From Flavobacteriaceae bacterium (GTDB taxonomy: Bacteria > Bacteroidota > Bacteroidia > Flavobacteriales > Flavobacteriaceae): a DNA stretch of 46,082 nucleotides. Shown here in pieces: positions 24,387-33,236 of the stretch. The stretch covers positions 1-46,082 of the forward strand of contig JAQWSN010000006.1 in assembly GCA_029243165.1 (NCBI GenBank), in the 5' to 3' direction. A model generated the notes under the pieces. That model was not told where the DNA came from. It saw nothing but the letters and a program-made list of their open reading frames with translations, and made no database searches. Made by a program: the position numbers and the translations under genes. Each line of letters starts with the position of its first letter. The stretch's first letter is position 1.

Positions 24387-24854
24387 GTGAAACTCTATCG
24401 TTTAGAAACAGTTCAGAATTTACCCATAACTAAGGAAAAAGCTTGGGAATTTTTCTCTGATCCAAGAAATTTAAAAGCCATTACCCCTGACTACATGGGT
24501 TTTAAAATTTTAAAAGGAGAAGCGCCAAAAATGTATGCTGGGCAAATTATTCAATACATCGTTACTCCACTTCTTAATATTCCTGTAAAGTGGATAACAG
24601 AAATTACTCATGTTGAAGAGGGGAGTTATTTTGTTGACGAACAGCGATTTGGTCCTTATGCGCTTTGGCATCACAAGCATTTTATCAAACCTATCAAAAA
24701 TGGAGTTGAGATGATTGATATCGTAGACTACAAAATACCTTTTGGTTTTTTAGGTCAATTGATGCATCCAATTTTGGTTGGGCCGAAACTAAAAGAAATT
24801 TTTGATTACAGAAGAACAGCTTTAATAGAGCGCTTTGGAAACTACGAAATATGA
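24387..24854 (+). CDS. SRPBCC family ligand-binding protein
   Basis: The 155-residue protein has the SRPBCC (START-like, helix-grip) pattern: an N-terminal strand, a helix with KAWEFFSDPRNLKAITP, and a long C-terminal helix after PFGFLGQLMHPI. These proteins bind hydrophobic ligands. Translation appears to begin at GTG. It is the first gene of the photolyase unit and overlaps the SDR gene by four bases. An SRPBCC-SDR-photolyase order also recurs in proteobacterial light-stress clusters as I recall, which suggests a role in pigment or oxidised-lipid handling; that is inference. Confidence 0.8.
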   Translation: MKLYRLETVQNLPITKEKAWEFFSDPRNLKAITPDYMGFKILKGEAPKMYAGQIIQYIVTPLLNIPVKWITEITHVEEGSYFVDEQRFGPYALWHHKHFIKPIKNGVEMIDIVDYKIPFGFLGQLMHPILVGPKLKEIFDYRRTALIERFGNYEI

Positions 24855-25552
24855 TAGAAAATAAAAACATTCTGATTGTTGGTGGAAGTTCGGGTATCGG
24901 GCTGGCGCTTGCGGAACATTTAAGTCCTCAAAATAATGTCTATGTTGCTAGCCGATCGAGTGAGGCGTTACAGCATTTAGACTTACACCATATCAAATTC
25001 GATGCTACTTTAGATGAGTTGGATACCAGTCAACTTCCTGAAACACTTCACGGATTTGTTTATTGCCCTGGCAGTATTAACCTTAGGCCATTTAAGGGAC
25101 TTAAATTAGAGTCGTTTCAATCTGATTTTGAGATAAATGTTTTGGGTGCGGTTCGTTCACTAAAATCCGTTTTAGGTCATCTTAGTTTAAGTGGGAATGC
25201 TGCAGTAGTATTTTACAGTACGGTTGCTGTACAAACAGGGATGCCTTTTCACAGTTCGGTGGCAGCTTCTAAAGGTGCTATTGAGGGGCTAACCCGTTCT
25301 TTGGCTGCAGAATTTGCACCTAAAATAAGAGTCAATGCAATCGCACCTTCATTAGTAAATACTCCGCTTGCTTCAAAATTTCTCAACAATGAAACAAAAA
25401 TGGATAAAGCCAATGAAAGACATCCGCTGGGCAGGGTAGGAAGTCCCAAAGAAATTGCCCAAGCAACAGCTTTTTTATTAGGTGAGGAGAGTGCCTGGAT
25501 GACAGGTAGGGTATTGCAGTTGGACGGAGGCATAGGAAACTTGAAAACTTAA
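24851..25552 (+). CDS. Atypical short-chain dehydrogenase/reductase lacking the catalytic Tyr
   Basis: The 233-residue protein has the SDR cofactor motif GGSSGIG (11-17), the structural N95 and the C-terminal QLDGGIG. In the active-site segment K141 is present, but the residue four positions before it is V137 instead of Tyr, and the catalytic Ser position holds T124. I recall the same H-x-S-V-A-A-x-K pattern in other photolyase-linked SDRs, so this may be a family trait and not decay. It may bind NAD(P) without ordinary SDR chemistry. It overlaps the SRPBCC gene by four bases, and the photolyase gene follows after two. Confidence 0.85.
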   Translation: MIENKNILIVGGSSGIGLALAEHLSPQNNVYVASRSSEALQHLDLHHIKFDATLDELDTSQLPETLHGFVYCPGSINLRPFKGLKLESFQSDFEINVLGAVRSLKSVLGHLSLSGNAAVVFYSTVAVQTGMPFHSSVAASKGAIEGLTRSLAAEFAPKIRVNAIAPSLVNTPLASKFLNNETKMDKANERHPLGRVGSPKEIAQATAFLLGEESAWMTGRVLQLDGGIGNLKT

Positions 25553-25554
25553 AA

Positions 25555-26862
25555 ATGAAAAAGTACACCATTTTTTGGTTTCGAAGAGATTTAAGAATAG
25601 AAGATAATCACGGATTGTTTGAAGCCTTATCGGGAAAAAATGAAGTGATACCAATATTTATTTTTGATCAGCAGATATTAAAAAAATTACCAAAAAGTGA
25701 CGCTCGATTAGAGTTTATTTTAGTAGCCTTGGGTACCATAGATATTGCTATGAAGAGGAACAGATGCAGTCTTGGAATGTATCTTGGTACCCCTAAGGCT
25801 ATTTTTAAAAAAATAATAAAACAATGGCCCATTGAAAAAGTAATTTGCAATACAGATTACGAGCCTTATGCCCGGGAGCGTGATGCATCAATTGCAGCTT
25901 TTTTAGAAGAAAATAACATTATATTTGAGAGTTATAAAGACCAAGTGATCTTTGAAAAAGATGAGGTTGTTAAAAACGACGGTACACCTTACCGAGTGTA
26001 CACTCCTTTTTCGAGGAAATGGCTGGAACTTTTTTCGCAAAACCCAATTGCGAATTTCCCTTCAGAATCTCATTTAAATAATTTAGCTCCATTGGATTTG
26101 CCTCAGCTTAATCTTGAAGATTTAGGTTTTAACCCCTCTCAACTCAGTTCTCCAAAATATATTTTTAACGAAAAAATCATTTCTTCTTATGAAGAAACCA
26201 GAAACTACCCAGCAGTTGATCAAACATCTCGCATTGGAACTCATCTTCGATTCGGAACTTTAAGTGTAAGAAAGATGGTCCAAAAATCATCTGAAAATGA
26301 GAATCCAACTTTTTTAAAAGAATTGATTTGGAGGGAGTTTTTTATGCAAATTCTATGGCACTTCCCTCATACCATGACAAGAAGTTTTAAGCCTCAATAC
26401 GATCGGATTGAGTGGAGAAATGATCCCTCAGAATTTGAAAAGTGGTGCCAAGGTAAGACAGGCTATCCATTGGTTGATGCGGGAATGCGTCAACTCAATC
26501 AAACTGGTTTTATGCACAATCGTGTCCGCATGTTAGTGGGTAGTTTTCTCTGTAAACATTTGTTAATTGATTGGAGACTAGGAGAAGCTTATTTTGCAGA
26601 GAAATTATTTGATTATGAAATGTCAAGTAATGTTGGGAATTGGCAATGGGTTGCAGGTTGTGGAGTTGATGCGGCTCCCTACTTTAGAATTTTTAATCCT
26701 ACGGAACAGATTAAAAAATTTGATAAGCAACACGAATACATAAGAAAATGGGTACCCGAATATCAAGAATTGAACTACCCTAAACCCATGGTAGATCACA
26801 AATTCGCAAGAGAGCGTTGTTTGACTACCTACAAATCAGCTCTCAATGCCCAAGCGAGTTGA
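25555..26862 (+). CDS. phrB: Deoxyribodipyrimidine photo-lyase, class I CPD type
   Basis: The 435-residue protein has the antenna-binding N-terminal domain ([12 protein letters not shown]) and the FAD-binding C-terminal domain with [22 protein letters not shown], a [11 protein letters not shown] segment and HNRVRM. N359, four residues before W363, corresponds to the flavin N5 contact of E. coli photolyase; W363 and W365 are in place (NVGNWQW). It uses blue light to split cyclobutane pyrimidine dimers. It is coupled to the SDR gene upstream and overlaps DUF2256 downstream by 17 bases. Confidence 0.94.
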
Positions 26863-26986
26863 AAAGAGGAATCTTCCTCAAAAAATTTGTCAAAGCTGTT
26901 CTAGACCCTTTTACTGGAGAAAAAAATGGGAGGCAAATTGGGATGACGTAAAGTACTGTAGTAAAAGATGTAGAGTTGAAAAATGA
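26846..26986 (+). CDS. DUF2256 domain protein (46 residues, zinc-ribbon-like)
   Basis: This short gene is read in another frame from the last 17 bases of the photolyase gene and ends with TGA at 26986. The 46-residue product is Lys/Arg-rich with two cysteine pairs, CQSC and CSKRC, and the family core [18 protein letters not shown]. That is the whole of the DUF2256 family (COG4338 type), which often lies next to photolyase or cryptochrome genes. The cysteines suggest a zinc site. No function is established; cofactor delivery or nucleic-acid binding are possibilities only. Confidence 0.9.
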
Positions 26987-27146
26987 TCTTTAAAACTTAA
27001 AATACATTCAACAAAACTACCTCTAAACGATAACTTATTCAGGAAAGTAAAAAAAGGAGTGATTATTAAAAGTTTTCCATAAATTAGCACTGCATACCAA
27101 ATCAATTAAGGCTGCCTCAACGCCTTGATTATCTAATTCTTAACCT
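26987..27146. other. 160-base spacer between DUF2256 and the OmpA gene
   Basis: No gene and no clear consensus promoter is visible. A weak imperfect hairpin (AAGGC/GCCTT around TGCCTCAAC, extended by AATC/GATT) lies at about 27103-27133 just before the OmpA start. Confidence 0.3.
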
Positions 27147-28505
27147 ATGAAACATAATTCTTTTCACCCTTATTTTATTGTACTTTTTTTTTCAGTAACA
27201 ATGCTTTTTTCTCAAACTAAAGAGCATCCTTGGCAAATTTCTTTTGGATTTAATGCTGTGGATACATTCCCAACGGATGTTGTAACTCAAGGTGATTTAT
27301 TTGAAGACTTTTTTAATGTTGGAGACCATTGGAATGTAGCTCCGTATCCTTCTCAAATTGGTATTACAAATTACATTGGTAGTGGCTTTTCTTTTGGGCT
27401 TCGTTTCAGTCATAACACCATCTCAAAGTATGGAGATCTCAAAGCGGATAATGATCTTTTTGCTTCGGGAGATGCCGTTATTAAGTACGATATCAATGCT
27501 TTATTAAAGACGGAACGATTTGCTCCCTATCTTGAAACGGGAGGAGGATATGTTTTTTTCGATGAGATCAGTGCTGGGTATTTTAATCTTGGTTTTGGAA
27601 TAGAATATGCACTAGGACAGAAGAAAAAAACAGTTCTTTTCGCCCAAAGTATTTTTCGAAATACAGGAGAAACTTATGGCAACAAACATTTTCAACATTC
27701 AGCGGGCTTAGGTTTTAGGTTTGGAAATAATGATCAGGATAATGATGGTATTAAGGATGCTGAAGATGCCTGTCCAGAGGAGTTTGGTCTTGCTGAGTTT
27801 AACCGTTGTCCAGATTCTGATAATGATGGGGTGCAAGATTCTATTGATGCTTGTCCTGAGAGCCCAGGTTTGGCAGAATTGAATGGATGCCCTGACCGGG
27901 ATGGCGATGGAGTAGAAGATCGTCAAGATAATTGTCCTGATACAAAAGGGTTACAAAGCCTAATGGGCTGCCCAGACTCAGATGCTGATGGGATTCGTGA
28001 TTCGGAAGATGCTTGTCCAGAGGTTTATGGGTTAGAAGCTTTTGACGGATGTCCAGATTCAGATAATGATGGTGTAGAAGATGCAGAGGATGAATGTCCT
28101 GAGGTTGTAGGCTCAATCACAAATAATGGATGTCCAGAAGTAGATGAAAGCGTAATAGAGGAACTCAATGAGATTGGACAAACAATTTATTTTCAGACTA
28201 ATAGTAATAAGCTGAGTAAAAATGACAAACGTATCCTAAGTCGTGTTTATGAAACTTTAGCCGCTTATCAAAATTATGAAATTGAAGTGCAAGGGCACAC
28301 TGACAGTGTAGGAGCAGAGGATTTGAACATGAAATTGTCTAAAGCTCGTGCCCAAGCAGTTGCAGATTATTTAATTTTTAAAGGCTTTTCTCGAAATAAG
28401 ATTAGTGCTCGTGGATACGGTGAAAGTAAACCAGCAGAATCAAATCTTACGGCAAGAGGAAGATCATTAAACAGAAGAGTGGTGTTTAAGTTGATAAAAA
28501 ATTAA
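27147..28505 (+). CDS. OmpA family protein with five TSP3-type calcium repeats
   Basis: The 452-residue protein has a signal peptide (ending MLFSQ), an N-terminal beta-barrel of about 165 residues, and five 27-residue thrombospondin type-3 repeats of the form D.D.DGV.D..D.CP......GCP. A C-terminal OmpA peptidoglycan-binding domain follows (EVQGHTDSVGAEDLN, LSKARAQAV, then ARGRSLNRRV). It would tie the outer membrane to the cell wall, with calcium stiffening the repeats. It sits between the two halves of the photolyase island but has its own terminator, so it looks like an independent unit. Confidence 0.92.
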   Translation: MKHNSFHPYFIVLFFSVTMLFSQTKEHPWQISFGFNAVDTFPTDVVTQGDLFEDFFNVGDHWNVAPYPSQIGITNYIGSGFSFGLRFSHNTISKYGDLKADNDLFASGDAVIKYDINALLKTERFAPYLETGGGYVFFDEISAGYFNLGFGIEYALGQKKKTVLFAQSIFRNTGETYGNKHFQHSAGLGFRFGNNDQDNDGIKDAEDACPEEFGLAEFNRCPDSDNDGVQDSIDACPESPGLAELNGCPDRDGDGVEDRQDNCPDTKGLQSLMGCPDSDADGIRDSEDACPEVYGLEAFDGCPDSDNDGVEDAEDECPEVVGSITNNGCPEVDESVIEELNEIGQTIYFQTNSNKLSKNDKRILSRVYETLAAYQNYEIEVQGHTDSVGAEDLNMKLSKARAQAVADYLIFKGFSRNKISARGYGESKPAESNLTARGRSLNRRVVFKLIKN

Positions 28506-28532
28506 CCTGGACTTCTTGCTGATTTTTTACAG

Positions 28533-28566
28533 AAAAGACCGTTTAATTTTAAGCGGTCTTTTTTTT
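28533..28566 (+). terminator. Intrinsic terminator of the OmpA gene
   Basis: AAAAGACCG (28533-28541) pairs perfectly with CGGTCTTTT (28554-28562); the stem extends inward through GTTTA/TTAAGC with one G-U pair. A run of eight Ts follows the GC-rich part. Confidence 0.9.
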
Positions 28567-28636
28567 GTAATATTCAATAATTTCGTTCCATATTTTTTTT
28601 CTATTTAGTATCTTGTAGGTAAAAATTGTTAGCGAA

Positions 28637-29950
28637 ATGGAGAATGAAAAACCAATTGCTATGGTTTGGTTGCGCAATGATTTGAGACTTTCGGATCAGC
28701 AATCATTCAGCTCGGCGGTAAGCTCAGGCCTAGACGTTGTAGCTTATTATTGTTTTGACCCCAAGCATTATGAAACCACTCAATGGGGATTTCCGAAAAC
28801 AGAAAGCTACAGAGCTCAATTTTTAATAGAAACATTAACCCAGCTTAAACAAGCGCTACTGGAATTAAATATTAGTTTAATTGTAGAACATAAAGATCCT
28901 GTTGAAGGTCTTGTTCATTGGATTGATAAACTTAACGTATCTACAGTTTACTTTCAAAAGGAGTGGACCCAAGAAGAACGCGTTGTTGAAAAAAAACTTC
29001 GTTCAATTGTTCGCTCAGAGATTGTATTTAAATCACATTACGATCAGTTTTTATTCCATCCAGAAGACCTTTCCTTTCCTTTGGATGAATTACCAGAGGT
29101 GTTTACTCAATTTAGAAAACTATGCGAAAAAAAATGTCATGTTCGAAAATTGATTCCAGAGATTGTTTCTTTACCCAAAGACAATTTACTTACTAATAAT
29201 TTTGAAATTCCAAGCTTGAATGATTTGGGATTAACAGCTAGAGAAGTGCATCCAAATTCTGCCTTTCCTTTTAAAGGGGGCAGTAAAGAGGCGGAGAAAA
29301 GACTGAATCATTACTTCTGGAATACTAAAAAACTCTCCTATTACAAGCAAACAAGAAATGGCTTAATCGGTAACGATTACAGCTCAAAATTTTCAGCTTG
29401 GCTAGCTAATGGATCCCTTTCGGCACGTCAGATTTATTGGGAAATTAGTTCATACGAAAAGGAAGTTAAAAAAAATCAGTCTACCTATTGGTTGATTTTT
29501 GAATTGATTTGGAGGGACTATTTTAAGTACATTTCTCTAAAACATCAGGATACGATCTTTCATTTAGGTGGAATTTTACAAAAGGATTACCACTGGGAAA
29601 GGGATACTAGAAGTGTAAAAAATTGGATGGAAGGGAAAACCAAAGAACCTTTTGTTAATGCCAATATGATTGAACTAAAAAAGACAGGATGGATGAGTAA
29701 TAGAGGTCGTCAAAATGTAGCTTCTTATTTTGCAAAAGACCTTCTGCTCGATTGGCGCATTGGGGCAGCTTATTTTGAATCTTTACTCATCGACTATGAT
29801 GTGCACAGCAATTATGGGAATTGGATGTATGTGGCTGGGGTTGGGAATGATCCACGGGATCGGAAGTTCAATGTCCGATTTCAAGCGGAACGCTATGATG
29901 AGGGCGGAAAATTTCAACAGATTTGGAATCAAAAAACACTTTTTGAATGA
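28637..29950 (+). CDS. Cryptochrome DASH
   Basis: The 437-residue protein has the photolyase antenna domain (MVWLRNDLRLSD) and FAD domain, with the DASH features KGGSKEAEKRLNHYFW, YKQTRNGLIG, and the C-terminal GNDPRDRKFN segment that separates DASH from class I enzymes. HSNYGNW (about 390-396) keeps the flavin-contacting Asn and the Trp. DASH proteins repair dimers in single-stranded or looped DNA and may also signal. Its stop overlaps the FeS-BCP start by four bases (ATGA). I see no exact consensus promoter; TATCTTGT about 25 bases upstream is near-consensus. Confidence 0.93.
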   Translation: MENEKPIAMVWLRNDLRLSDQQSFSSAVSSGLDVVAYYCFDPKHYETTQWGFPKTESYRAQFLIETLTQLKQALLELNISLIVEHKDPVEGLVHWIDKLNVSTVYFQKEWTQEERVVEKKLRSIVRSEIVFKSHYDQFLFHPEDLSFPLDELPEVFTQFRKLCEKKCHVRKLIPEIVSLPKDNLLTNNFEIPSLNDLGLTAREVHPNSAFPFKGGSKEAEKRLNHYFWNTKKLSYYKQTRNGLIGNDYSSKFSAWLANGSLSARQIYWEISSYEKEVKKNQSTYWLIFELIWRDYFKYISLKHQDTIFHLGGILQKDYHWERDTRSVKNWMEGKTKEPFVNANMIELKKTGWMSNRGRQNVASYFAKDLLLDWRIGAAYFESLLIDYDVHSNYGNWMYVAGVGNDPRDRKFNVRFQAERYDEGGKFQQIWNQKTLFE

Positions 29951-31479
29951 ATCTAAAACTCATTTTAGGGGATCAATTAAATCTTGAGCATTCTTGGTTT
30001 AAAAAAGGGGACGATTCTGTCGTTTTTGTACTGATGGAAATGCGTCAAGAGACCGACTATGCAACGCATCACATTCAAAAGATTGTTGCTTTTTTCGGTG
30101 CAATGCGTAATTTTAATGAGACCCTATTAGCAAGGGGACACCAAACGCACTATTTGACTCTTGACGACCCCAAAAACACTCAGAATTTAGAAGATAATTT
30201 AAAGATACTTCTTCAACAGTATTCAGCAACCACCTTTTCTTATTTGGAACCCGATGAATTCCGACTTGACAAGCAATTGAAAGATTTTTGTAATTCGCTT
30301 TCCATCTCTAGTAAGGTTGAAGACACAGAACATTTCATGACTTCTAGGACAGAATTGAGTTCTTTTTTTGAAGGGAAAAAACAGTTGATTTTGGAATTTT
30401 TTTACCGCAATATGCGAAAGAAATTCAATCTATTGATGCAACTCGATCAGCCGGAGGGTGGTCAGTGGAATTTTGATAAAAATAACCGTAAAAAGTGGAA
30501 GGGTACACCTGAAATCCCACCACCGTATTTACCAAGTTCGGATCAACTTTTAGGTTTAAAAAAAATGATTGAGAAGGCTGGAGTAAAGACCATTGGATCT
30601 TTTGATCAAGACCACTTTCTCTATCCATTGAGTCGGAAACAAGCTCTAGATCAGTTAGCGTATTTTTGTGAGCACTTATTAGTCCATTTTGGTGATTATC
30701 AAGATGCTTTGCATACTGATGAGGTAAATCTTTTCCACTCAAGGATTTCGTTTGCTTTAAATACCAAAATGATAGATCCGCTTGAGGTTGTTCAGCAGGT
30801 AATTGATTTTTACAGAGAAAACAAAGAGGATATTGAACTCTCACAAGTAGAGGGATTTGTTCGTCAAATTATTGGTTGGAGAGAATACATGCGTGGAATT
30901 TATTGGAAAGAAATGCCGAATTACGCAAAAACCAATGCATTGGAAAATTCGAATCCTTTGCCTAAATTCTATTGGACAGGAACGACTAAGATGAATTGTC
31001 TTCATCAGAGCATTACTAATTCTTTGGATCACGCCTATGCACATCACATTCAGCGGCTGATGATCACAGGCAATTTTGCCTTACTTGCTCAAGTTCATCC
31101 CGATGCTGTGGACCAGTGGTATTTAGGAATTTATGCGGATGCTATTGAATGGGTTCAAATCACAAATACTCGTGGAATGAGTCAATGGGCAGATGGAGGC
31201 ATTGTAGCAACAAAGCCATACGTCTCAGCTGCAGCTTACATTCACAAAATGAGTAATTACTGTGACAGTTGTCAGTACGATAAGAAAAAACGCGTTGGGG
31301 AAGACGCCTGCCCGTTTAACAGTTTGTATTGGAATTTTTTAGATGATAAAAAACAGTTTTTTGCAAAAAACAATCGGATGGCAATGATGCTTCGTTTGTT
31401 AGAAAAAATTCCACCAGAGGATCTAGAGCAAATCAAATTAAGAGCAGCAAAAATTCTAAATAATCCTGATGACTTCTAA
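29947..31479 (+). CDS. FeS-BCP photolyase (bacterial 6-4 photolyase, PhrB/CryB-like)
   Basis: The 510-residue protein begins with L-I-L-G-D-Q-L, the mark of the iron-sulfur bacterial cryptochrome/photolyase family. Four cysteines at the expected places, C351 (NCLHQS), C439 and C442 (CDSC) and C455 (ACPFN), would bind a [4Fe-4S] cluster. The family repairs (6-4) photoproducts and uses FAD with a ribityllumazine antenna, from work on Agrobacterium PhrB and Rhodobacter CryB. It overlaps CRY-DASH by four bases and the next photolyase-like gene by eleven. Activity here is inferred from family and the intact cysteines. Confidence 0.93.
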
Positions 31480-32950
31480 CCGAATTCCAGTAGGGGTAGT
31501 TTGGTTTAAACGGGATTTAAGGCTATTAGATCACGAGGCTTTAACGCATGCGATAAAAAAACACAAAAATGTTTTACTGATTTACATTGCGGAGGATTCG
31601 CTTCAAAAGGAACCCCATACTAGCGAAAGGCATCTGGATTTTATCAAGCAGTCAATAGTGGATTTAAACACGAAGTTAGAAAGGTTTAACACCCAAATTC
31701 TTGCCGTTGAGGGAGAAGTGGTTGAGGTATTGGAAAAATTGAATTTGTATTTTAAAATAGAGGCCCTCTATTCCCATTATGAAACAGGAATTGGACTGAC
31801 TTTCAAGCGCGACATTGAAGTGAAAAAGTGGGTTGAAAAGCAGCAAATTCTTTGGGATGAGTATCGACATCAAGGTGTTTTTCGGGGTTTGAAACATCGC
31901 AAAAAATGGTTGCAGCATTGGACCGCTTTAATGAATGAAGAGCTGTTTCCATTTCCTTCCGAAAAGAAATTTATCAGCAAAAATCACTTGGGTAAATTTT
32001 TAAAGTATTTTAAAATAGTAGACTTAACTACGGAGCACTCAAAGTTTATCCAGCCGGGTGGAGAAACTAATGCTCATCGTTATTTAAATTCTTTTTTTGA
32101 AGGTAGGTACGTTACTTATCAAAAGCACATATCAAAACCCGATTTAGCTCGAAAAAGCTGTAGTAGACTTTCACCCTACATAGCCTATGGTAATTTATCG
32201 ATGCGTCAGGTTTTACAAAGAACAGAGGAGGAGAAGGAAACGGGAAAAACGGGTTTTGGTATCCGTGCTTTTGAATCCAGACTGCGTTGGCAGTCCCATT
32301 TCATTCAAAAATTTGAAATGGAATGTCGAATGGAATTTGAAAGTATTAATCGGGGTTATCATCGTTTAGAAAAACCGATTAACCGACATCATATTAGGGC
32401 TTGGGAAGCAGGAAAAACTGGTGTACCGATGGTTGATGCTGCAATGCGTTGTTTGGTGGGTACGGGTTATTTAAATTTTAGAATGCGGGCTTTGGTAGTT
32501 TCGTTTTTTGTACATCAATTGTGGCAACCGTGGCAAGCTTGCTCTGCTTTTTTAGCACGTCAGTTTCTAGACTTTGAACCTGGAATTCACTTTCCTCAAC
32601 TGCAAATGCAAGCGGGTGAAACAGGGATTAACACCTTACGTATTTACAACCCGGTAAAAAACGGGCAAGAACACGATCCTAAAGGACATTTCACCAAACA
32701 GTGGCTCCCTGAGCTTAAAAACCTTCCTGAGGAACTGATACATGCCCCATGGGAAATTACTGCATTTGAAGAAATGCTTTACGATTTCAATATTGAAAAA
32801 AACTATTTGCGCCCCATTGTAGATTTAGAGCAAAGTCGTAAAGAGGCCTCTTCACTTTTGTGGGGAATGCACCAAGATAATTTAGTTAAACAAGAAAGTA
32901 AGCGTATCTTGCAACGTCATACGCTTCCAAATAGGAAAAGTATCCAGTGA
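31469..32950 (+). CDS. Divergent cryptochrome/photolyase-like FAD-binding protein
   Basis: The 493-residue product has an antenna-type N-terminal domain ([14 protein letters not shown]) and the FAD-pocket segments [10 protein letters not shown] (about 232-241) and [10 protein letters not shown]. The stretch that should hold the flavin Asn and the NWQW-type tryptophans reads instead like [13 protein letters not shown] (about 374-386), and DW in the preceding helix is replaced by QPWQ. It is thus a distinct clade, possibly a repair enzyme with different electron transfer, or a photosensor. It overlaps the FeS-BCP gene by 11 bases; the TIGR03643 gene follows after one base. Confidence 0.85.
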
Positions 32951-32951
32951 T

Positions 32952-33236
32952 ATGAAAAAGAAAATCGACTTTACAGCGCCTCAGATAGATCGAATCATTG
33001 AAATGGCATGGGAAGATCGGACACCTTTCGAAGCGATATCCATTCAGTTTGGATTGAAAGAACAAGAGGTGATTACTCTTATGCGAAGAGAAATGAAACC
33101 TTCTAGTTTTAAAATGTGGCGTGCAAGGGTGCAGGGTAGGGGAACCAAACATCAAAAAAAGCGTCCAGATTCAACACAGACGTTTCGATGTACGAGACAA
33201 AAGGGAATCAGTAACAATAAAATTTCCAAACGGTAA
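32952..33236 (+). CDS. TIGR03643 family small protein
   Basis: The 94-residue protein matches TIGR03643 over its first 70 residues: IDRIIEMAWEDRTPFEAI, QFGL, EVITLMRREMKPSSFKMWR and GRGTKH. The front part looks like a helix-turn-helix (a tri-helical region with Q-F-G-L-K-E-Q-E-V), and the tail is basic. The family is found near cryptochrome/photolyase genes. It is probably cotranscribed with the three preceding genes. DNA binding is a guess from the helical pattern and charge. Confidence 0.82.
   Translation: MKKKIDFTAPQIDRIIEMAWEDRTPFEAISIQFGLKEQEVITLMRREMKPSSFKMWRARVQGRGTKHQKKRPDSTQTFRCTRQKGISNNKISKR

Follow-up and report, generated by a model that had tools for sequence, protein, structure and literature searches.

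Class I photolyases reverse cyclobutane pyrimidine dimers (CPDs) in duplex DNA, CRY-DASH proteins reverse CPDs in single strands and proteins of the FeS-BCP type act on (6-4) photoproducts. Genes of such enzymes have been described in light-responsive groups, as in Vibrio, where blue light induces photolyase and cryptochrome operons (PMC5241685), and in Pseudomonas, where light-induced clusters hold phrB, cryB and folE together with genes for a short-chain dehydrogenase/reductase (SDR) and an FAD oxidoreductase (PMC9758184). Whether the FeS-BCP represent the ancestral photolyase, as has been proposed, is disputed (PMC9498864). Here we analyse a stretch of 46,082 nucleotides from a Flavobacteriaceae bacterium (assembly GCA_029243165.1, contig JAQWSN010000006.1), termed the window throughout, which contains an island of four photolyase genes, encoding a class I-type enzyme, a CRY-DASH, a FeS-BCP and a divergent fourth protein that we call PHL4, together with genes for an SRPBCC-like protein, an SDR and members of two small families, DUF2256 and DUF2805 (TIGR03643). 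We find that the order of these genes is conserved in relatives, that DUF2256 is linked to FeS-BCP, and that PHL4 belongs to a clade with a distinct set of conserved residues, some members of which are fused to a uracil-DNA glycosylase (UDG). That the island is a flavobacterial photoreactivation operon, in which DUF2256 is the partner of FeS-BCP and PHL4 a distinct repair flavoprotein, appears to us an evenly balanced proposition.

DUF2256 follows FeS-BCP

The distribution of the families was investigated in 198 Bacteroidota genomes of at least 90% completeness, the same draw being searched with each family. PHL4 was counted by a profile of its alignment (A1) at 418 bits or above, with the next match at 267 bits, and two weak DUF2256 matches, one partial (genome G082, 27.7 bits) and one below the cut-off (G011, 24.6 bits), are excluded from counts based on 62 genomes and included in those based on 64. 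DUF2256 is present in 62 genomes, FeS-BCP in 65, CRY-DASH above its cut-off in 46 and PHL4 in 27. Both DUF2256 and FeS-BCP are found in 58 genomes, DUF2256 alone in four, FeS-BCP alone in seven and neither in 129, which corresponds to a phi of 0.87, compared to values for DUF2256 of 0.74 with CRY-DASH and 0.56 with PHL4. Rhodopsin, as control for a sunlight lifestyle, gives a phi of 0.43 with DUF2256 and 0.47 with FeS-BCP; a further control family, PF02607, is uninformative, being present in 189 of the 198 genomes. Within the 148 genomes devoid of both CRY-DASH and PHL4, 16 carry DUF2256, 20 FeS-BCP and 15 both. Shuffling within families across the 120 genomes bearing the photolyase domain PF03441 leads to an expectation of 45.1 co-occurrences, compared to the 58 observed (p 5e-5, the lowest value attainable with 20,000 shuffles). 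Given FeS-BCP, neither CRY-DASH (p 0.25) nor PHL4 (p 0.87) adds to the prediction of DUF2256, whereas FeS-BCP does so given CRY-DASH (p 5e-5). DUF2256 follows FeS-BCP specifically, also within families.

The association extends to gene neighbourhoods. A photolyase domain is encoded in 63 of the 64 DUF2256 genomes, compared to 122 of 198 overall, and is located within 8 kb of DUF2256 in at least 44 of the 64. Counting genomes that carry both genes, a distance of at most 3 kb separates DUF2256 from FeS-BCP in 25 of 58 cases, from CRY-DASH in 26 of 43 and from PHL4 in 13 of 26, and any of the three is that close in 43 of 62. Plasmid records containing DUF2256 and FeS-BCP number 133 and 86, respectively, with gaps determined from 60 listed rows for each family and three extra DUF2256 rows. 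In 24 of the 32 records listed for both, the genes are separated by 7–155 bases, in one by 7.7 kb and in seven by more than 100 kb. The close pairs span seven genera, although ten are from Acinetobacter and the 24 are thus not independent cases. Among 14 control genomes, DUF2256 is found in two, both of which encode the FeS-BCP domain DPRP, itself present in three.

Several observations weigh against an exclusive pairing. The third DPRP-containing control, Haloferax, lacks DUF2256, and so do the seven Bacteroidota genomes with FeS-BCP alone, while three of the four genomes with DUF2256 and no FeS-BCP contain CRY-DASH. In the window, the gene immediately preceding DUF2256 is that of the class I enzyme; on four Salinivibrio plasmids DUF2256 is located 83–155 bases from a PHL4 match with FeS-BCP more than 100 kb away, and it adjoins PHL4 in Tritonibacter too. 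The 6 kb around DUF2256 are free of photolyase genes in three plasmid regions, among them the single region inspected from Pantoea, which accounts for 57 of the 133 DUF2256 plasmid records. Moreover, co-inheritance does not equal interaction. These neighbours, together with the proximity to CRY-DASH in more than half of the genomes carrying both, would be expected if DUF2256 was a general partner of several photolyases, with FeS-BCP merely the commonest, a possibility that we regard as rather doubtful given that CRY-DASH or PHL4 do not predict DUF2256 once FeS-BCP is accounted for.

The DUF2256 protein contains four cysteines (C15, C18, C38 and C42), which are invariant in 23 sequences, and a basic-aromatic WRKKW core. 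Since motifs of four cysteines may be structural or metal-handling, a role in DNA binding is putative. The family belongs to the TRASH clan (PMC4047054) and is frequent among small proteins (PMC11796252). A sequence search for relatives of known structure gave none that was significant, the best being uL24 (E 0.016).

PHL4 combines a photolyase fold with a non-canonical active site

To compare binding-site residues we aligned 51 PHL4, 38 class I and 38 CRY-DASH sequences, many of them close relatives, with E. coli Phr, with positions numbered and residue roles assigned as in the literature. The class I group retains R226, E274, W277, N341, M345, W359, W382 and W384 in 38 of 38 sequences and W306 in 36. 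As judged from these residues of the CPD pocket and the tryptophan chain, the class I-type protein of the window is predicted to be a genuine CPD photolyase, and its best solved relatives are the class I enzymes 1owl and 1tez. In PHL4, R226 is replaced by Ser, E274 by Arg, M345 by Ala or Ser and N378 by His in 51 of 51 sequences, and N341 by Phe and W384 by Met in 50 of 51. Tryptophan is absent from position 382 in all 51, and at position 306 Lys is commonest (34 of 51), with Trp outside the five commonest residues that cover 46 sequences. Conversely, W277, R342, R344 and D372 (51 of 51) and W359 (49 of 51) are kept. The PHL4 of the window shows S, R, W, F, A, W, L and M at positions 226, 274, 277, 341, 345, 359, 382 and 384. 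The near-invariance of the replacements argues for selection rather than decay, and a conserved active site of this composition does not appear to fit the CPD mechanism. The original prediction that CPD, (6-4) and single-strand repair functions would be made together agrees with the family membership of three enzymes but does not extend to the fourth, which is devoid of most residues of the CPD mechanism.

An assignment of PHL4 to known groups was rejected in three cases: to class I CPD photolyases since most CPD-pocket residues are missing, to CRY-DASH since it scores 149.9 bits with TIGR02765 (cut-off 317.05), and to the Phr2 of marine Synechococcus since the latter is described as PhrB-like (PMC9426592). 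In a tree of E. coli Phr, class I-like, CRY-DASH and PHL4 sequences, built without class II, class III, plant or animal references, the 27 PHL4 rows form one clade (100/100), in which Bacteroidota, alpha- and gamma-proteobacteria and Deinococcus are represented and a long-branched sequence from a Nostoc plasmid, which lacks the EPGIH motif, is the outermost member. The structural model of PHL4 has a mean pLDDT of 92.0 and displays a complete photolyase fold. As a side observation, a Halorubrum plasmid gene resembling PHL4 (L161:3926-5524) is split into two annotated coding sequences (CDS).

Pfam identifies a UDG domain fused to PHL4 in three proteins, from Deinococcus proteolyticus, D. gobiensis and D. 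aetherius. For D. proteolyticus and D. aetherius the annotation gives the fusion as one CDS, and for D. gobiensis the annotated CDS starts inside a longer open reading frame (ORF). A uracil-DNA glycosylase feature underlies the match in all seven Deinococcus plasmid records with PHL4, three of which were inspected. The fusions (L157:4968-7280, L182:2995-5268 and L183:2992-5313) are annotated solely as uracil-DNA glycosylase. Deamination of cytosines in dimers yields uracil, which would account for the combination of the two domains.

Alternatively, PHL4 could sense light, or bind DNA in the manner of a cryptochrome, and use the photolyase fold without catalysis. Such a role would be compatible with the intact fold of the model, the loss of W382 and of CPD-pocket residues and the presence of a histidine at the position of FAD N5. 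The UDG fusions, which favour a repair role, the location of the gene among repair genes in operon form and the full conservation of W277 and the FAD-binding residues R344 and D372 speak against it, and we consider such a non-catalytic role rather doubtful.

A probable ancestral operon split by an outer membrane protein gene

Table 1. Features of the island in the window, with positions, strand and supporting evidence.
Feature	Position	Strand	Evidence
SRPBCC-like small protein, 155 aa, GTG start	24387..24854	+	ORF; sub-threshold Polyketide_cyc; same place in 7 relatives
SDR oxidoreductase, 233 aa	24851..25552	+	PF13561, 130.7 bits
Class I-type CPD photolyase, 435 aa	25555..26862	+	PF03441/PF00875
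DUF2256, 46 aa, zinc-finger-like with four cysteines, likely partner of FeS-BCP	26846..26986	+	PF10013, 72.6 bits (cut-off 25)
OmpA/TSP3 outer-membrane protein gene, interrupts operon	27147..28505	+	PF00691, PF02412
Terminator-like hairpin with T-run, behind OmpA gene	28525..28575	+	Folding compared to shuffles
CRY-DASH, 437 aa	28637..29950	+	TIGR02765 (crypto_DASH), 496.4 bits (cut-off 317.05)
FeS-BCP, Fe-S (6-4) photolyase type, 510 aa	29947..31479	+	PF04244 (DPRP), 250.6 bits (cut-off 22.1)
PHL4, divergent fourth photolyase-fold protein, 493 aa	31469..32950	+	PF03441, residues, tree, model
DUF2805/TIGR03643, 94 aa, HTH-like	32952..33236	+	Pfam, 124.3 bits (cut-off 22.5); TIGR03643, 119.9 bits (cut-off 66.55)

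The eight ORFs initially proposed for the island and their spacings were all recovered in the ORF list, and the family labels hold except for that of the SRPBCC-like protein. The latter has no Pfam match at 1e-3, and its similarity to Polyketide_cyc (E 0.083, and 2.7e-4 in the best of five relatives) stays below the cut-off. For the SDR, none of the 25 NCBIfam matches listed is an SDR model over its cut-off. Successive genes among the first four are related by a 4-base overlap, a 2-base gap and a 17-base overlap, and those from CRY-DASH to DUF2805 by a 4-base overlap, an 11-base overlap and a 1-base gap. Inside the island, and dividing it, is an OmpA/TSP3 gene that had gone unnamed and that is not part of the repair system. 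The 51 bases of the hairpin behind this gene fold at –19.6 kcal/mol (z –7.09), with none of 200 shuffles being as stable. This hairpin with its T-run suggests that in this genome the second half of the island is probably transcribed separately. The hairpin is not among the 12 sites obtained in a scan of the window for terminator patterns (shuffle mean 6.8), and the promoter part of the scan returned 16 sites, fewer than the shuffle mean of 24.7; we draw no claim from either.

For comparison with relatives we used the DUF2805 protein of the window as query and retrieved the best 80 of 586 Bacteroidota loci (81 counting the window). Seven of them (L036, L037, L038, L040, L043, L046 and L089) display the uninterrupted order SRPBCC-like protein, SDR, class I photolyase, DUF2256, CRY-DASH, FeS-BCP, PHL4 and DUF2805, with no OmpA-like insert between DUF2256 and CRY-DASH, and in an eighth (L039), which ends at a contig edge, the order is the same with PHL4 not detected. 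At all 49 junctions in the seven relatives the genes overlap or leave a gap of no more than 6 bases, with overlaps being approximate since ORF starts were assigned mechanically. The recurrence of the same eight genes places their association above chance and points to a single ancestral operon, which was presumably split by the ompA-like gene in the lineage of the window. The proposal that each half constitutes one unit fits the window, yet describes a secondary state.

In the wider set, a photolyase of the class I, CRY-DASH or PHL4 kind is found on the retrieved DNA of 45 of the 80 relatives (46 of 81 with the window), and FeS-BCP on that of 33 of 81. Neighbours in other Flavobacteriaceae, named by the Pfam match of one example per family, include GTP cyclohydrolase I (25 of 81 loci), flavin reductase (27), NmrA/DUF2867 (28), TspO (24) and a glutathione-peroxidase family protein (22). 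A further family, exemplified by a 142-residue protein without Pfam match at 1e-3 (L053:9573-10001), is encoded just upstream of DUF2805 in 23 of 81 loci. A phage origin of the genes was rejected, as a search of 50,697 phage records with the DUF2805 protein of the window, the one family queried, gave no match.

DUF2805 as putative DNA-binding protein

DUF2805 is present in 56 of the 198 genomes, all of which contain a PF03441 photolyase, compared to 120 of 198 overall; 48 of the 56 carry FeS-BCP and 48 DUF2256 (49 including the two weak matches). Outside Bacteroidota, the gene is found beside DUF2256 and FeS-BCP in Acinetobacter, adjoining DUF2256 with PHL4 about 4 kb away in Pseudoalteromonas and about 4 kb from PHL4 on a Vibrio plasmid, and on another Vibrio plasmid and a Nostoc plasmid there is no photolyase within 7 kb. 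Both small families had been put forward as undescribed parts of a light-repair system, with their occurrence in most genomes without a photolyase nearby as the observation that would speak against it. The direction of this proposal holds up, and for DUF2256 the link to FeS-BCP is sharper than claimed. It is less firm for DUF2805, where a photolyase was seen within 8 kb in at least 16 of the 56 genomes, so that, taken strictly, the opposing observation was made for this family, unlike for DUF2256 with its at least 44 of 64.

In alignment A2, 26 DUF2805 sequences from Bacteroidota, gamma-proteobacteria and one cyanobacterium are 55–76% identical to the copy of the window, and three paralogues of the Flavobacterium type are 27–31% identical. 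Such a divergent second copy, of which three were aligned with the identities just given, was observed just upstream of the main one in five loci (L041:9643-9915, L054:9671-9946, L061:76-357, L091:9667-9945 and L102:2067-2342). An AlphaFold2 model contains helices at residues 9–21, 26–33, 37–47 and 50–61, with block means of the pLDDT of 89–92 for residues 11–60. Many of its weak Foldseek matches are helix-turn-helix (HTH) proteins (LsrR, sigma region 4, KorA and TrpR), others are not. From this model, we infer that DUF2805 may be a small DNA-binding protein. Speaking against such a role in the same system, Foldseek returned no match in the PDB at E 0.001, Pfam matches to a NirDL-type HTH were sub-threshold in 28 of 55 members (best E 0.0018), partner tests cannot separate DUF2256 from FeS-BCP (p 0.31 and 0.50), and correlation in metagenomes places DUF2805 near translation domains (PMC3597751). 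Relatives of known structure searched by sequence were not significant.

Light regulation

A motif search did not find a LitR-like gene in the window. The same genome encodes a LitR/CarH-type protein, with MerR and B12-binding domains, followed by phytoene synthase (L165:6768-8596, contig G000:C34). A rhodopsin gene (PF01036) was also observed in this genome (L166, G000:C26:26700-27353). The island may be induced by light, as such clusters are in Pseudomonas. It could also reflect mere co-regulation, with unrelated light or UV genes gathered under a LitR/CarH-type regulator and DUF2256 and DUF2805 serving other photoprotective tasks. The regulator gene beside phytoene synthase would agree with this view, as would a MerR gene with LitR-type motif on the retrieved DNA of nine of the 80 DUF2805 loci, three of them confirmed by Pfam as MerR with B12-binding domain, the neighbouring genes for GTP cyclohydrolase I, flavin reductase, TspO and the glutathione-peroxidase family protein, the frequent location of DUF2805 away from photolyases and the light-induced clusters of similar content in Pseudomonas (PMC9758184). 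Against it, DUF2256 still follows FeS-BCP after conditioning on the other photolyases and on family, a preference for one enzyme type that a general light regulon would hardly produce, and the two genes are 7–155 bases apart on plasmids of seven genera. We therefore view co-regulation as the sole cause with some scepticism.

Proposed roles and relation to known systems

In the mechanism that we propose, DUF2256 would most likely act as small zinc-finger partner of FeS-BCP, which helps to find or hold damaged DNA; alternatively it may help the enzyme to gain or keep its 4Fe-4S cluster. DUF2805 would most likely bind DNA as a small HTH protein in the same response, PHL4 a DNA-repair flavoprotein with retained FAD fold and a chemistry unlike that of CPD photolyases, and the SDR and the SRPBCC-like protein probably helpers in cofactor supply or photo-oxidation. 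More tentatively, DUF2256 might be a required partner of Fe-S (6-4) photolyases across bacteria, in which case the FeS-BCP enzymes studied so far were assayed without a subunit, and PHL4 might define a new functional class of photolyase-fold repair flavoproteins with an Arg/Phe/His/Met active site, acting on a UV product in connection with the removal of uracil (for example deaminated cytosine dimers), for which the Deinococcus fusions would speak. The two small families, so far unstudied, can now be tested as parts of photoreactivation, and for one of them the statistics point to a single enzyme type. Since the position of FeS-BCP as ancestral photolyase is under debate, an overlooked partner would, if true, bear on how these enzymes work and evolved. 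Most surprising to us is the fourth photolyase, a widespread clade of this fold with a conserved active site that seems at odds with the CPD mechanism and with UDG fusions among its members.

With respect to described enzymes, the FeS-BCP of the window resembles the prokaryotic (6-4) photolyases, PhrB of Agrobacterium and the 6-4 photolyase of Vibrio cholerae, aligning nearly full-length with 7ykn, including the four cysteines of the cluster. The DUF2256 companion is a feature of the present system, and we found no paper mentioning it together with a photolyase in the literature searched, which leaves out most subscription journals. The clusters of the Pseudomonas LitR regulon contain similar gene classes, and a LitR/CarH-type gene is found in the genome of the window too, although, unlike in Pseudomonas, the motif search placed no such regulator in the window itself. 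The top structural match of the PHL4 model is the class III photolyase PhrA (4u63), with which it shares 22% identity, although PHL4 is devoid of most CPD-pocket residues. Finally, the UV-B operon of Synechococcus sp. PCC 7335 combines two photolyase genes with an 11-base overlap, as found here, and its second enzyme, a homologue of PhrSph98, is related to class II; as judged from the published description and not from an alignment, the residue set of PhrSph98 (E310, W314, N384, M388 and N412) differs from that of PHL4 (PMC9649867).

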